DNA from: Thiomicrorhabdus sp. zzn3
Lineage (GTDB): Bacteria > Pseudomonadota > Gammaproteobacteria > Thiomicrospirales > Thiomicrospiraceae
Direction: 5' to 3'
Length of the DNA stretch: 64,000 bases
NCBI RefSeq assembly: GCF_029767755.1
Contig: NZ_JARUQS010000001.1
Coordinates: 930,001-994,000, forward strand
The position numbers and the translations under genes are program-made. Of this stretch, positions 1 to 52,916 are shown one piece after another (positions within the stretch are counted from its first letter, which is position 1; the number at the start of each line of letters is the position of its first letter). The notes under the pieces are model-generated. The model saw nothing but the letters and a program-made list of their open reading frames with translations, had not been told where the DNA came from and ran no database searches.

Positions 1-1344
1 ACTAAAAGTTTTGATCCTGATACAGGCACTTACTCCGCAATGGTTGAAGGGGAATCTTTTGCCAGCTTTATTCATGACGGTACCAATGTGGATACGTCAA
101 CGGCGAAATTGACCGGTAAAGATTGGCCGGTTGGTGAACCTTCCGGGGTTAAGGTTCTTACAGATACGGATACGGTCTATATGGCTAATGGCAAGCCTGC
201 GAGCTGTATTTTAAGCACGTCGTTTCATCCTTTTTCGGATGATGAAAAATATGTTGACGGCACTAAGACCTTGCCAGATGGAGCAACGTTGGATGACGGA
301 TTGTTAAATTCAAATGTTGTAAACCCAACCATGTGTGACAGTGCGTTCCAAACCCATAAACGCTTTAAAGTCAGTGCATTGCCAGGTTCTATTGCTGATA
401 ACGGCTCAGGTAGTCCTGTCGCTATCGATATGGTTTTCAATGTTGAAGATGCTGCGAACCCCGAGGGGGGCGACGCTACCCGTTATATGGTTTTGCAAAA
501 GCTGAACAACTACACTGATAAACACTTGAAAGGCTTTACCCTGCAGGTGGGCAGCGGTGTCGGTACGAGCTTTGTTGCGAATACAACATCTACAGTAGAA
601 TTGTCTGATGGTGTTGGTGAAAAACCTGAAGGTGGCGATATCTGGGATGCAAATGATATGGCTACGTTCTCTGCTGGTCTGTTTGGACCAGGTGACGACA
701 AGCATGATCCGGGCTTCTTTGATAACACAACCAGAGCCGGTTTTTATGCGGCAGAAACAGCAGTCGCGCCCAAAAATGAAATTACATCCGGTGCCGTCCT
801 GTCGGACACCTATGAGAACCTGTTTGGCAGTAAGTGGTTGCCAAGTATTTACGAACCAAAAGGGATTTTCTACGACTTCGATAACAATCCGGCGACCGAT
901 GACCGCTTGGTTGCATGGTGGGGGGACAATCCGAATACCGCAGCAGAAGATTATATGTGGCTGAAAGGCGCGGCTGATGATTACGCTCCTGCCACTGCCG
1001 AAGAGTTGGAAGCGTGGGCCACCAGCGAGGAGCCCTATTATATTGGCGGCATTGAGGATGTACTGAACCTTGGGTTGAGCTATATCATCGATGTGGGTGA
1101 TGTCACTGCTGACAATGGAACTTTTACCTTGAGAATGATTCCTTTGGTGGATGAAACCAAAACGGATTATGTACCTGGCTTTACTGAGGATGAAAACCAG
1201 CCTCCGGCTGATTTGGAGGGGTACATCTCTGACAGCGACAGTAAAGGCATTTTCAGCGCATATGACAATACCAGTTTACTGGCAACGGTTTTAGGCTTCT
1301 TGGGTCTGGGTGCTTTGGTGGCTCGACGCAAACTGTCTAAGTGA
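1..1344 (+). CDS. Surface/exported protein with C-terminal sorting signal (5' truncated; choice-of-anchor F-like)
   Basis: The reading frame is already open at base 1, so the start and any signal peptide lie outside the window; about 447 residues are visible. The body is acidic and soluble-looking. The last part has the layout of an exosortase substrate: a short polar stretch (YDNTS), a hydrophobic helix (LLATVLGFLGLGAL) and a basic tail (VARRKLSK). It has no PEP motif. An exosortase gene follows 48 bases downstream, so the pair probably forms a dedicated substrate/enzyme unit. The central region (LFGPGDD, GFFD, AWWGDN, IEDVLNLGLSYI) resembles the choice-of-anchor F family as I remember it; that family assignment is inference. 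Function otherwise unknown. Confidence 0.75.
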   Translation, partial: TKSFDPDTGTYSAMVEGESFASFIHDGTNVDTSTAKLTGKDWPVGEPSGVKVLTDTDTVYMANGKPASCILSTSFHPFSDDEKYVDGTKTLPDGATLDDGLLNSNVVNPTMCDSAFQTHKRFKVSALPGSIADNGSGSPVAIDMVFNVEDAANPEGGDATRYMVLQKLNNYTDKHLKGFTLQVGSGVGTSFVANTTSTVELSDGVGEKPEGGDIWDANDMATFSAGLFGPGDDKHDPGFFDNTTRAGFYAAETAVAPKNEITSGAVLSDTYENLFGSKWLPSIYEPKGIFYDFDNNPATDDRLVAWWGDNPNTAAEDYMWLKGAADDYAPATAEELEAWATSEEPYYIGGIEDVLNLGLSYIIDVGDVTADNGTFTLRMIPLVDETKTDYVPGFTEDENQPPADLEGYISDSDSKGIFSAYDNTSLLATVLGFLGLGALVARRKLSK

Positions 1345-6222: not shown

Positions 6223-7380
6223 TTATTTATAAGGGACATGCTGAGAACATTCTTCACAGTATGCTTGAGTAGCTTCTTTCTCAGCGGTTAAAAAGTTTTG
6301 CAACGACTTAGTAAACGGATTCACCGTTAGCCAATGTGCTGAGCGAGTTTTAACCGGAACGAATCCTCGTGCGATTTTATGTTCTCCCCCCGCGCCGGGT
6401 TCGAACAGCGCTAATCCATGTTTAATGGCGTATTCGATTCCCTGGTAGTAACAGGCCTCGAAATGTAAGTTTTTAACCTCTTTAAAGCAACCCCAGTGGC
6501 GCCCGAATAGAGTGTTATCACTTCGATACATCAAGGCTCCAGCAACGGATTGGCCGCTGGTATCCTCTGCCATAATCAAAACTGTTTGATCGGGCAGGGC
6601 TTGAGCCACCTCTTTAAAAAATCCTTCGTTCAGTGTTGGGGTGCTCCATTTATCAGTAAAGGTTTTAACATAGAGTTCGCTGAAGATTGTCCAGTCTTCA
6701 GCGGTGGCGGTATGGCCATTAAGTGTGCGAATCTGCATACCCGACTGTTGGATACTGCGCCGTTCCTGAAGAATGTTTTTACGCTTTTTCGCGGTCAGTG
6801 TGGCCAGGAAGTCATCAAAGTTTCGGTAGTCCTGATTAAACCAATGAAAATGGCAATCGTGACGAACCAGAATATCTGTCTGTGATTCCAACCAGGCCTG
6901 TTGATTTTTTTCTGCAAACAAGCAGTGCCAACCACTCATGCCGTGCTGGCTGGCAAAGACTTCAATCTGCTCCAGCATCTCTGTCAGCAAGGTTACACAA
7001 TCGTTTTCGGATAGATCGGGATGAGTTAAAAATCGCTGGCCAGTGACTGGGCTGTAGGGCACGGAGGTGACCAATTTAGGGTAATAGGGCAAGCCAACCT
7101 GTTGCCAGGCTTGCGCCCACGTATGGTCAAAGACGAACTCCCCATAGGAGTTGTATTTAATATACAGCGGTACTGCACCGATCAGTTTATCGTCTTGATA
7201 AACGGCTAGGTGGCTGGGGAGCCAGCCAAAGGTTTCGCCGACACACTCATGCACCTCTAATGCATGTAGGAAATGATGATTAAGAAACGGGTCGTTTTCT
7301 TTGACCAACTGATTCCACGCGATTGCATCAATCTCACCGATTCGCTGATGGAATTCAAAATGCCAATGATGGGTCGCCAT
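6223..7380 (-). CDS. FemAB/GNAT-like protein (PF04339-type, 'peptidogalycan biosynthesis/recognition')
   Basis: A 385-residue cytoplasmic protein of the family formerly called DUF482, whose fold is that of FemAB/GNAT acyltransferases. Typical segments are visible: FLNHHFLHALE near the start, FLATLTAKKRKNILQERR in the middle, and the signature LFEPGAGGEHKIARGF near the C-terminus. No substrate is known. Acyl or aminoacyl transfer is inferred from the fold. It lies 4 bases downstream of the ZIP-like gene on the same strand, so the two are very probably co-transcribed. Confidence 0.85.
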   Translation of the reverse strand: MATHHWHFEFHQRIGEIDAIAWNQLVKENDPFLNHHFLHALEVHECVGETFGWLPSHLAVYQDDKLIGAVPLYIKYNSYGEFVFDHTWAQAWQQVGLPYYPKLVTSVPYSPVTGQRFLTHPDLSENDCVTLLTEMLEQIEVFASQHGMSGWHCLFAEKNQQAWLESQTDILVRHDCHFHWFNQDYRNFDDFLATLTAKKRKNILQERRSIQQSGMQIRTLNGHTATAEDWTIFSELYVKTFTDKWSTPTLNEGFFKEVAQALPDQTVLIMAEDTSGQSVAGALMYRSDNTLFGRHWGCFKEVKNLHFEACYYQGIEYAIKHGLALFEPGAGGEHKIARGFVPVKTRSAHWLTVNPFTKSLQNFLTAEKEATQAYCEECSQHVPYK

Positions 7381-7384
7381 GTGA

Positions 7385-9232
7385 TTACATCATCCCTGTA
7401 TCCAAAGTCTTAAACAAAACTGCCGTTAAGAATCCGATCAAGGTGACAAACCCTATAATTGATCCGCCTTTAAGATAGGCTTCAGGCAGCATGGTTTCCG
7501 CAATTACCGTCAGCATTGCGCCTGCCGCCATTCCGCTAATGACGGCAAAACTGATAAGATTGGCGCCGTTTAACAGCAAACTGCCTAGTGCCGCACCGAT
7601 GCCGGTCATCAGCATAAGAAAAAACCATGCGCTGAAGACCTTGTTGAACGAGATGCCTTGCTCCCGCATACTGGCGGAGCTGGAAAGAGCCTCGGGATAG
7701 TTGGATAAAAACAGTGCAGCAATCAAACTCATGCTGATCATGTGGCCGTCGGTCATATGGGCGCCAATCATAAAGGATTCGGGGATACCGTCGAGCATAA
7801 TCCCCAACCAAATGGCCAGATAGGCGGCTTTGTGCTGCCTAAAACTATGTGACAAGGCCTCGAGTGAGGGAAGTTGTCCCGGAAGCAGACGGGTAAGTGA
7901 ACGTTTTAGCCATTCCTGCGCCTGACTTTCCGGAAGCTTCTGCTCCTGAATCAGGTACTGTTTGATATCAGAGGTTTTAAAATAGTTTTTAAGGTGGGTG
8001 TAAAGGGGGTCAAGCTGGCGCAAAAGGTATAAAAAATCGCTTTTGTTCAACACCCAGAATCGAACATCGGCTTTAGCGATGGCGCTGTTACTGTGCTTGC
8101 CGCCAACCACGAACGCCTTGGCACCGAAAAAATCGCCGGGCTTTAACATCTCAAAACCAAAACGTTGTAGATTGGGATCAATTAATTCAACCTCTCCCGA
8201 TTCTAAAAGATAGAGGCGGTCAGCCTTGCTGCGATTGCTGAAAATGGTTTGCCCGGCATAAAGTGTTCTGAGTTCAAGCTTGCCGGCAATCAGCTCTTTT
8301 AGAGCTGCATCGCAGTGCTCAAAAAGCTCAAAACGTCGGGCGTGCATTAACCGCTTCCAAGCCAGCTCAATATCCATCGCCTCCAACTCAGGTTCGGGCA
8401 GACAACGCCTATGGAGCAGGCTGTCACAGATTGTTTGCAGGTGACTATTGGCTTGAACTTCATTCATACGATGACGGCTCAGCAGATAAGTACGCAGTTC
8501 ACTATTGTACTGGACATAATTTGCAAGGATCTCAGGAAGCGTGTCCGTTTTTGAGAGAATAGTGTTGAAGGTTTGACGATCCAGCCTCCAGACCATCAGA
8601 TCCGATGCCGCCTGAGCCAGCGTCGCGTTGCGTAAACTGCTAAAGAACGCCATTCGTCCAAAGGCTTCGCCATGAGACAGTGCCCGAAAGGTTTTCAGTC
8701 CGAGATCGGGGTCACGAAGTTTTACAGTGCCATGTTCAATGATATAAAACGCATTTTTGCAGTCGCTATGGTGATACAAGATGTCATTTTCAGCATAGTA
8801 CTCACTTTGCAGGGCTTCTAAGAAGAGTGCTTGTTCGTGATCGGGCAGCTCCTTAAAAAACGGCAGATTATCCAATGAGTTCTGCAGGCGTTGACGTCTT
8901 TTTTTGTGGCGGTTGCGGAAATACTGAATCGTAGTGGCGGTTTTTCTTAAAAAGCCGCCTTGTTCGTTCAGTTGGTGGTTCAGAAACAGGTAGAACAGAC
9001 TGCCGGTAATGGCGCCGATGGCCGATGCAAAGAAGTAGCCGTTATGAATCGCTGGGGCAAACAGATCAATGGTCACAGCCGAAAGTAGCGCCCCGGCACC
9101 AAAGGCCATAAGCCAAGCAATCGCCCGGTCACCCGGTCTCCAGATCAGGGTGGTTAAGGCGCCCAAAGGCAGAGAGGCGGCACTCAGGAGGCCGATGAAA
9201 AATGCGATGTAGACGAGTTGTTCAACAGACAC
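7385..9232 (-). CDS. ZIP-like membrane transporter with two inserted cyclic-nucleotide-binding domains
   Basis: A 615-residue protein with an unusual order of domains. Residues 1-85 form two to three membrane helices, including AFGAGALLSAVTIDLFAPA, which resembles the first helices of ZIP transporters. Residues about 120-235 and 305-425 are two cyclic-nucleotide-binding domains (phosphate-cassette-like GEAFGRMAFFSSLRNATLA and GDFFGAKAFVVGGKHSNS). From about 465 to the end there are again membrane helices with ZIP-type repeats: DGIPESFMIGA near 481, SNYPEALSSS near 510 and AETMLPEAY near 580. The histidines normally found before PE in ZIP helices 4 and 5 are Asp and Asn here, so metal transport is not certain. 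Confidence 0.8.
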   Translation of the reverse strand: MSVEQLVYIAFFIGLLSAASLPLGALTTLIWRPGDRAIAWLMAFGAGALLSAVTIDLFAPAIHNGYFFASAIGAITGSLFYLFLNHQLNEQGGFLRKTATTIQYFRNRHKKRRQRLQNSLDNLPFFKELPDHEQALFLEALQSEYYAENDILYHHSDCKNAFYIIEHGTVKLRDPDLGLKTFRALSHGEAFGRMAFFSSLRNATLAQAASDLMVWRLDRQTFNTILSKTDTLPEILANYVQYNSELRTYLLSRHRMNEVQANSHLQTICDSLLHRRCLPEPELEAMDIELAWKRLMHARRFELFEHCDAALKELIAGKLELRTLYAGQTIFSNRSKADRLYLLESGEVELIDPNLQRFGFEMLKPGDFFGAKAFVVGGKHSNSAIAKADVRFWVLNKSDFLYLLRQLDPLYTHLKNYFKTSDIKQYLIQEQKLPESQAQEWLKRSLTRLLPGQLPSLEALSHSFRQHKAAYLAIWLGIMLDGIPESFMIGAHMTDGHMISMSLIAALFLSNYPEALSSSASMREQGISFNKVFSAWFFLMLMTGIGAALGSLLLNGANLISFAVISGMAAGAMLTVIAETMLPEAYLKGGSIIGFVTLIGFLTAVLFKTLDTGMM

Positions 9233-36638: not shown

Positions 36639-37136
36639 ATGGCAAGAGAGATTGAACGAAAATTTTTAATGAAAGGCGATGCTTGGAAAGCCTTGGCGTT
36701 TCAGCAGACCCATTTTGCCCAAGGTTATCTGAATGACATTTCCGATAAAACCGCCAAAAGTTCGGTGCGCGTGCGTATTGAAGGTGAGCAGGCCAATCTG
36801 AATATTAAAAGTCTGGAAATCGGTCTGAGTCGTGACGAATATGAAGTTCACCTGCCGCTTGAAGACGCCAAAAAAATTCTCGCCACGCTGACCGTCGGCC
36901 CGGTGATTGAGAAAATCCGTTACCTGGTGCGTTATGCCGATCATATTTGGGAAATCGACGAGTTTCTGGGTGACAATGCCGGCCTGATCATTGGCGAAGT
37001 GGAAATGGAAACCGAAGAAGACCATGTGGTTTTACCGGAATGGGCCGGTCGTGAAGTGACAAACGAAGCCCGTTTTTATAATATCAGTTTGAGTAAATAT
37101 CCGTTTAAGGAGTGGAGTGCCGATGAAAAACAATAA
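36639..37136 (+). CDS. CYTH-domain phosphatase/triphosphatase
   Basis: A 165-residue CYTH protein. The N-terminal EIERKFLMKGDAW carries the ExExK-type metal/phosphate motif; alternating charged strands (SSVRVRIEGEQANLNIKS, EKIRYLVRYADHIWEIDEF) line the tunnel. Small bacterial members hydrolyse inorganic tri- or polyphosphate; a few are adenylate cyclases, so the substrate is open. The window has two cNMP-binding proteins, which makes a cyclase activity worth remembering, though there is no direct support. The end overlaps the start region of the TolC-like gene. Confidence 0.85.
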   Translation: MAREIERKFLMKGDAWKALAFQQTHFAQGYLNDISDKTAKSSVRVRIEGEQANLNIKSLEIGLSRDEYEVHLPLEDAKKILATLTVGPVIEKIRYLVRYADHIWEIDEFLGDNAGLIIGEVEMETEEDHVVLPEWAGREVTNEARFYNISLSKYPFKEWSADEKQ

Positions 37137-52436: not shown

Positions 52437-52916
52437 TTAATATTGAGCGGTATATTGGTTCTGAATCATGCGATGCATCTCGAGGTATTTTGCATTCATT
52501 TTACGCTGCAGGGTATGCGAATACCGTAAAATTGAACGCATCACGTGAAAGGTTACTAAAGGGTGGCTCTCAACCAGAGATTCGAATTTATCGCGACGCA
52601 ACATCAGTACCTCGCTCTGATTTTTTGCAATCAGTCGCAAAGAGTGGGGGACGCCGTCCAAAAAGCTGAGTTCTCCCGTCATGCTTCCGGTTTTCAGGGA
52701 GTCGATTGAAATCGATTTGTCCGGTGTTAACATCTTCAGGACTTCCAATTTGCCGGTAATCAGAATGTACAAGGTGTCATCTTGTGATCCTTCATAAAAC
52801 AGTACCTCGCCTGGTTCAAGTTGGCGGTGTTCAACCGCAGATGCAAGAATTTCACACTCCTCTTCGGTGACATCTTGGCCCAGAACGGAATTGGCAATCT
52901 TTTTGGCAACGGACAT
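52437..52916 (-). CDS. Single-domain cyclic-nucleotide-binding protein
   Basis: A 159-residue protein that is essentially one cNMP-binding domain: EPGEVLFYEGSQDDTLYILI, GSMTGELSFLDGVPHSLRLI with the phosphate-binding cassette, and a C-terminal helix. The GELSFLDGVPHSL loop keeps Glu but has His-Ser where cAMP receptors have Arg-Ser/Thr, so cAMP binding is uncertain. It has no DNA-binding or output domain. Isolated gene. Confidence 0.87.
   Translation of the reverse strand: MSVAKKIANSVLGQDVTEEECEILASAVEHRQLEPGEVLFYEGSQDDTLYILITGKLEVLKMLTPDKSISIDSLKTGSMTGELSFLDGVPHSLRLIAKNQSEVLMLRRDKFESLVESHPLVTFHVMRSILRYSHTLQRKMNAKYLEMHRMIQNQYTAQY

Follow-up and report, generated by a model that had tools for sequence, protein, structure and literature searches.

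The gene at positions 7385-9232 of the window, by which we mean the whole 64,000-nucleotide stretch of Thiomicrorhabdus sp. zzn3 DNA analyzed here, encodes a ZIP-like membrane protein in which the cytoplasmic loop between transmembrane helices TM3 and TM4 is filled by two cyclic-nucleotide-binding domains (CNBDs), a module of about 360 residues. The reading that we favor, and to which we give an even chance, is that the protein is an elevator-type divalent-cation transporter of the ZIP fold, in which the CNBD module has replaced the TM3-TM4 loop and confers regulation at this site by a non-classical ligand. Both the fold and the domain are known; what appears to be undescribed is their widespread combination at a meaningful site. 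The sequence-only reading of this DNA knew of no characterized protein with the order ZIP-CNBD-CNBD-ZIP, and in the open-access literature neither a description nor a characterized protein of this order was found among the matches listed. In PMC5751234, which deals with the evolution of ZIP proteins, the word 'cyclic' occurs 0 times.

Domain organization and fold

The gene lies on the minus strand, begins with GTG, and gives a product of 615 aa, while the plus strand of the same interval is closed by many stops. GTG also stands at the aligned start of five homologues from the order (L003-L007) among those inspected. The open reading frame, the Pfam matches, and the AlphaFold model give the layout ZIP TM1-3, CNBD1, CNBD2, and ZIP TM4-8 over the whole of 7385-9232. 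The segment TM1-3 (aa 1-97; 8942-9232, minus strand, as are all features of the gene) is delimited by model helices at aa 3-30, 35-63, and 67-90 and by alignment with BbZIP. CNBD1 (aa 119-228; 8549-8878) is supported by Pfam cNMP_binding, a PF00027 genome match at 8549-8803, and a CNBD fold with Z of 15-18, and CNBD2 (aa 296-408; 8009-8347) by Pfam cNMP_binding at aa 322-406 and a PF00027 genome match at 8015-8269. The segment TM4-8 (aa 463-612; 7397-7846) matches BbZIP by profile (5tsa, E 2.3e-8). On the protein as a whole, Pfam cNMP_binding matches in two stretches with E 5.7e-30, Zip matches with E 3.6e-9 and 36.8 bits, above the gathering score of 35.1 (best stretch aa 463-585), and Pfam finds no domain beyond these two. 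None of the seven NCBIfam models listed for the protein reaches its cut-off, ZupT scoring 29 vs 252 bits. In a sequence search of the PDB, the CNBDs match regulatory subunits of PKA and aa 475-611 match BbZIP.

The AlphaFold model, which was built on 51 family members, has a mean pLDDT of 86.5 and a pTM of 0.61. Its comparison with the BbZIP structure 8ght gives Z 25.1 and an rmsd of 2.4 Å over 242 aligned residues, in the model range 2..612. As this range runs from TM1 to TM8, the first three and the last five helices together form, in the model, one ZIP transporter fold with the topology of BbZIP. The proposal of the sequence-only reading, a ZIP transporter split by tandem cyclic-nucleotide domains, is thus borne out by Pfam and by a structural match that spans both membrane parts, and the comparison with ZIP structures that it had called for shows that these parts do form a ZIP fold. 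In the second search of solved structures with this model, the best eight rows are all BbZIP and CNBD structures come after them, with CNBD matches that include HCN2 (Z 17.8) and MloK1 (Z 17.1); a plain Foldseek search with the same model returned no ZIP in its best 50 rows, all of which are CNBD proteins. The model of L086, a relative with one CNBD, has a mean pLDDT of 77.7 and matches BbZIP with Z 24.0 over 226 residues at 2.4 Å.

The charges of the loops are distributed unevenly: there is no Lys or Arg at the N-terminus or in the three loops on the outside and one in the C-terminal tail, whereas the inside loops hold 2, 9 (in the 35 residues that follow TM3), 3 (ahead of TM4), 2, and 1. These charges obey the positive-inside rule and, together with the ZIP topology, place the CNBDs in the cytoplasm. 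How the CNBDs are placed relative to the membrane in the model is uncertain at this pTM.

Distribution and phylogeny

Homologues at E up to 1e-10 are present in 11 of 32 genomes of the genus and 14 of 62 genomes of the order; given long homologues in that many genomes, chance or an assembly artefact was rejected as an explanation. At E up to 1e-30, the class sample yielded 2 of 369 genomes, namely zzn3 and one of its genus. A phage origin was also rejected, as none of the 26 pattern matches in viral_contigs was confirmed as a relative.

A profile scan with one genome per species gave 248 stretches, 233 of which encode a relative; the best 80 by match were kept. As lower-ranked relatives may be CNBD-free, CNBD-bearing forms are not enumerated by the figure of 233 or by the ratio of architectures. 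Two architectures were seen: proteins of about 600 aa carry two CNBDs, and those of about 430 aa carry one. Of the 80 loci, 50 entered the two-CNBD set and 20 the one-CNBD set, and 10 whose sequence was cut or frameshifted or lacked a complete start were left out (L028, L055, L062, L065, L068, L072, L082, L089, L093, and L094). A wrong-frame reading in the one-CNBD set, L095, was kept out of the counts and trees, which leaves 19 one-CNBD sequences. By Pfam at E up to 0.01, cNMP_binding matches 51 of 51 double-CNBD sequences and Zip 41 of 51; among the one-CNBD sequences each model matches 19 of 20, the exception presumably being L095. One locus, L016 (genome G034), carries an in-frame TAA inside its first CNBD, which reflects either a disrupted gene copy or an error of assembly.

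According to their organism labels, the 69 placed loci cover 14 phyla (Pseudomonadota, Planctomycetota, Bacillota, Bacteroidota, Acidobacteriota, Actinomycetota, Nitrospirota, Verrucomicrobiota, Cyanobacteriota, Chlorobiota, Spirochaetota, Elusimicrobiota, Rokuibacteriota, and Thermodesulfobacteriota), a range to be read with the possibility of binning errors, as the family records are mostly metagenome assemblies. Carriers among isolates include Thiomicrorhabdus chilensis DSM 12352, Hydrogenovibrio halophilus DSM 15072, Adonisia turfae CCMR0081, and Thiohalocapsa halophila DSM 6210.

Of 398 Pseudomonadota genomes searched with a profile of TM4-8, 20 had a match at E up to 1e-8, and seven of these matches, besides zzn3, were far stronger (E 1e-20 to 1e-38). 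The seven (L098-L104) are stand-alone ZIP-like proteins, with a ZIP part of about 240-255 aa and the motifs DGxPE and SNxPE. They are the nearest relatives of the membrane parts and share their metal motifs, but inspection of their sequences by eye showed no CNBD and a short TM3-TM4 loop without room for one. Longer open frames upstream of L098, L102, and L104 were taken as non-coding, and the sample of stand-alone relatives comes from Pseudomonadota only. Relatives of TM4-8 are also found on plasmids, in 25 records, the 15 listed being labeled 'ZIP family zinc transporter' or 'hypothetical protein' or left unannotated.

In a quick tree of the membrane parts, with long branches flagged, all 70 CNBD-bearing sequences (the 69 loci and zzn3) fall on one branch with SH-aLRT 98. 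This branch adjoins the stand-alone ZIP-like proteins, and a split with support 96 sets these 77 sequences apart from 12 ordinary ZIPs. The zzn3 protein has its nearest named relatives in Thiomicrorhabdus. The one- and two-CNBD forms are partly intermixed in this tree, without strong support, and do not form clean sister groups, which speaks against a simple history: label changes number 4 for two-CNBD and 3 for one-CNBD forms, although the starred branches force only 1 each. In a tree of the CNBDs themselves, the first, second, and single copies are each set apart by a branch (68, 91, and 99). The single branch of CNBD-bearing forms and the grouping of each kind of CNBD copy fit a history in which a stand-alone ZIP whose metal motifs were already altered would have received a single insertion, with later gain or loss of one CNBD.

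The metal site

The TM4 motif DGIPES (aa 481-486; 7775-7792, minus strand) aligns with H177-N178-x-P180-E181 of BbZIP, and the TM5 motif SNYPEA (aa 510-515; 7688-7705, minus strand) with Q207-D208-x-P210-E211. Residue by residue, the profile alignment pairs H177-N178, E181, Q207-D208, and E211 with D481-G482, E485, S510-N511, and E514, in line with the sequence-only reading, in which the metal-site histidines appeared to be replaced in these motifs. Profile mapping further pairs E240 with T543 (Thr in 48 of 51 double-CNBD sequences) and E276 with T580 (Thr in 51 of 51), and H275/E276 of BbZIP correspond to E/T in the zzn3 protein. The canonical binuclear center of BbZIP and ZupT (H177, N178, Q207, D208, and E240) is therefore absent, its positions being held by D, G, S, N, and T; the roles of the BbZIP residues are those given in excerpts of PMC9873690 and PMC10256678. 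Since H177, N178, Q207, D208, E240, and E276 have all been replaced, transport may differ or be lost.

However, seven residues of the two motifs (D481, P484, E485, S510, N511, P513, and E514), among them the PE residues P484, E485, P513, and E514 characteristic of the ZIP superfamily, are the same in all 51 double-CNBD sequences, several of which are near-copies and hence not independent tests, and G482 is kept in 47 of 51. At aa 56 in TM2 an acidic residue is found in 49 of 51 (Asp in 45 and Glu in 4), as it is at the same position in four stand-alone ZIP-like proteins that were compared. Mean column entropy is 1.38 and 1.24 bits in the two membrane parts vs 2.26 and 2.11 bits in the two CNBDs, and invariant columns number 16 of 97 in TM1-3 and 25 of 150 in TM4-8 across the 51 sequences. 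On account of this invariance across phyla and the presence of the same motifs in CNBD-free proteins, the altered metal site looks to have been kept as a different working site rather than to have decayed, and the suggestion of the sequence-only reading that transport has been lost is weakened. From these residues, we infer that the site has changed its ion preference. Made up of D481, E485, and E514 with S510 and N511, it would be richer in carboxylates than the zinc site of BbZIP, and harder ions, e.g., Mn2+, Fe2+, or Mg2+, would be at least as likely to be the substrate as Zn2+.

The same evidence bears on whether the protein could be a membrane receptor without transport, the second option of the sequence-only reading, whose ZIP fold would bind metal from outside and whose CNBDs would report it. 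The replacement of several BbZIP metal ligands and the presence of a large cytoplasmic module are in keeping with such a receptor, but the metal motifs recur in stand-alone ZIP-like proteins that have no module to signal with. The invariance of these residues in all 51 sequences also argues against it, as does the lack of a further Pfam domain on the protein and of a conserved partner gene, and we consider a receptor unlikely.

Phosphate-binding cassettes of the CNBDs and nucleotide cyclases

The phosphate-binding cassette of CNBD1, FGRMAFFSSLRNAT (aa 191-204; 8621-8662, minus strand), has Arg193 at the Glu position and Asn202 at the Arg position, and that of CNBD2, FGAKAFVVGGKHSN (aa 369-382; 8087-8128, minus strand), has Ala371 and His380 at the corresponding positions. 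The Glu and Arg of the cassette are the residues that hold the cyclic phosphate in PKA and CRP, and neither CNBD of the zzn3 protein has this pair, by which a cAMP or cGMP receptor would be recognized. Across the 51 double-CNBD sequences, the cassette of CNBD1 has the Glu in none and the Arg in 3, and that of CNBD2 has the Glu in 4 and the Arg in 5, while His takes the Arg position in 32 CNBD1 and 44 CNBD2 cassettes. In contrast, 18 of the 19 one-CNBD relatives have the Glu and 11 have the Arg.

The zzn3 genome, which is 99.99% complete, contains no class III cyclase (PF00211) and no class I cyclase (PF01295), the latter being found in 0 of 60 genomes of the order. Its only CYTH match is a protein of 165 aa (window 36639-37136, plus strand), which no NCBIfam model matches at E up to 0.01 and which may act as a triphosphatase or as a class IV cyclase. 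Within the order, a class III cyclase occurs in 6 of 14 carriers of the gene and 22 of 46 non-carriers, and a link between the two was rejected (Fisher p 0.77). Genomes with the one-CNBD form have a class III cyclase in 19 of 19 cases vs 36 of 44 plus 6 of 14 (order) for the two-CNBD form (Fisher p 0.008), a contrast that is confounded by phylum, relatedness, and assembly completeness and on which we do not lean.

Because both CNBDs lack the Glu and Arg and the genome lacks class I and III cyclases, cAMP and cGMP are poor candidate ligands for the zzn3 protein, whereas for the one-CNBD branch they are fair candidates. The idea of nucleotide gating put forward by the sequence-only reading is to that extent not supported for zzn3 and stands as a possibility for the one-CNBD branch. 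As an account of the zzn3 protein, a classical cAMP- or cGMP-gated metal transporter is thus very unlikely: the closeness of the CNBD folds to HCN2 and MloK1 and the cassettes and cyclases of the one-CNBD relatives speak for it, but the missing Glu and Arg, the missing cyclases (a class IV enzyme of the CYTH type still being possible), and the similar cyclase frequencies of carriers and non-carriers in the order all speak against it.

CNBD-fold proteins that are independent of cyclic nucleotides exist, and the CNBDs could be ligand-free structural or dimerizing parts that steady a ZIP dimer. Such a role would agree with their lower conservation relative to the membrane parts and with the loss of ligand residues in the two-CNBD branch. 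The cassettes, however, are more conserved than the CNBDs as wholes (entropy 1.87 vs 2.26 bits in CNBD1 and 1.58 vs 2.11 bits in CNBD2), and the frequent His at the Arg position suggests that a pocket has been kept; we regard a purely structural role as unlikely.

Two other CNBD proteins of zzn3 were noted. A small stand-alone CNBD protein (window 52563-52826, minus strand; open frame of 169 aa) keeps the cassette Glu and has His at the Arg position, a pair that is common to several one-CNBD ZIPs. Elsewhere in the genome (L123, G000:C1:898410-898658), a CNBD protein of about 620 aa has a PF00027 score below the cut-off, and its open frame presumably belongs to the CNBD-CBS-nucleotidyltransferase type.

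Proposed mechanism and comparison with known systems

Despite its similarity to BbZIP (8ght and 5tsa), with the same fold across both membrane parts and aligned PE motifs in TM4 and TM5, the zzn3 protein differs in the TM3-TM4 loop, which in BbZIP is short, His-rich, and CNBD-free. The loop that is enlarged in the zzn3 protein is the autoregulatory loop of BbZIP described in excerpts of PMC10256678. According to these excerpts, the loop senses cytosolic zinc and inhibits uptake, folding back and binding zinc through His149 and His151 to block it, and truncation of the corresponding loop in plant IRT1 leads to zinc accumulation. TM3 belongs to the static scaffold and TM4 to the moving transport domain (excerpts of PMC10256678 and PMC9873690). 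The CNBD module would therefore be joined to the scaffold at one end and to the transport domain at the other, and binding of a ligand or a partner to the module may shift its C-terminal helices. Motion of these helices would pull or release TM4, by which the elevator would be locked or freed. In the two-CNBD branch, including zzn3, the ligand would be other than classical cAMP or cGMP, and may be another purine compound, as in the PKA of trypanosomatids.

A regulated transporter is favored by the BbZIP fold, the cytoplasmic position of the CNBDs, their confinement to one branch, the invariant metal motifs and their presence in stand-alone relatives, the membrane parts being more conserved than the CNBDs, and the regulatory function of the BbZIP loop. 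As to its ligand, the Glu and Arg are lost in the two-CNBD branch while the Glu is kept in most one-CNBD members, and the zzn3 genome has no class I or III cyclase. Against it are the replaced BbZIP ligands, the lack of a conserved partner gene, a possible class IV cyclase, and the uncertain placement of the CNBDs in the model. A broader proposal, that these proteins are second-messenger-gated bacterial metal transporters in which the one-CNBD forms respond to cAMP or cGMP and the two-CNBD module has turned to another cytosolic ligand, e.g., a nucleoside, is possible but doubtful.

The tandem CNBDs with a replaced phosphate Arg resemble those of the trypanosomatid PKA regulatory subunit, which binds purine nucleosides instead of cAMP; the cassette Arg is among the residues discussed there (excerpts of PMC10959531). 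In contrast to the zzn3 protein, which lacks them, the trypanosomatid subunit has Glu residues for the ribose, and it is a soluble kinase regulator. Other secondary transporters with a CNBD are the sperm Na+/H+ exchanger SLC9C1, which the structural search with the one-CNBD model lists at ranks 44 and 49, and the bacterial MFS-CNBD fusions. Their transporter folds are other than ZIP, and their CNBD is appended instead of being inserted between TM3 and TM4. The MFS-CNBD fusions are named among recruitable regulatory domains in excerpts of PMC10710835.

The importance of the arrangement lies in its position, as the module occupies, across many phyla, the very loop shown to regulate uptake in excerpts of PMC10256678. 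If the module gates transport, it would offer a handle on the control of the ZIP elevator and an example of post-translational, ligand-driven control of metal uptake; if gating by a second messenger holds true, a metabolic signal and metal uptake would be directly coupled in many phyla. Proteins with no CNBD, with one CNBD that has ligand residues, and with two that lack them also make up a natural series for studying how sensor domains are recruited and repurposed.

Gene neighborhood

The flanks of the 80 loci and of zzn3, which vary in length and are in some cases short, showed no conserved operon partner. The largest cluster of neighbors, adjacency to the gene aside, is present in 12 of 81 stretches and the next in 6; the former presumably consists of ABC-type ATPases, a very common family. 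In zzn3, a FemAB_like protein is encoded at 6223-7380 of the window on the minus strand, starting 4 bases after the ZIP gene, and this neighbor clusters only for zzn3, L017, and L018. At L038, L045, and L059, the neighbors are presumably related to acetate kinase and phosphoketolase.
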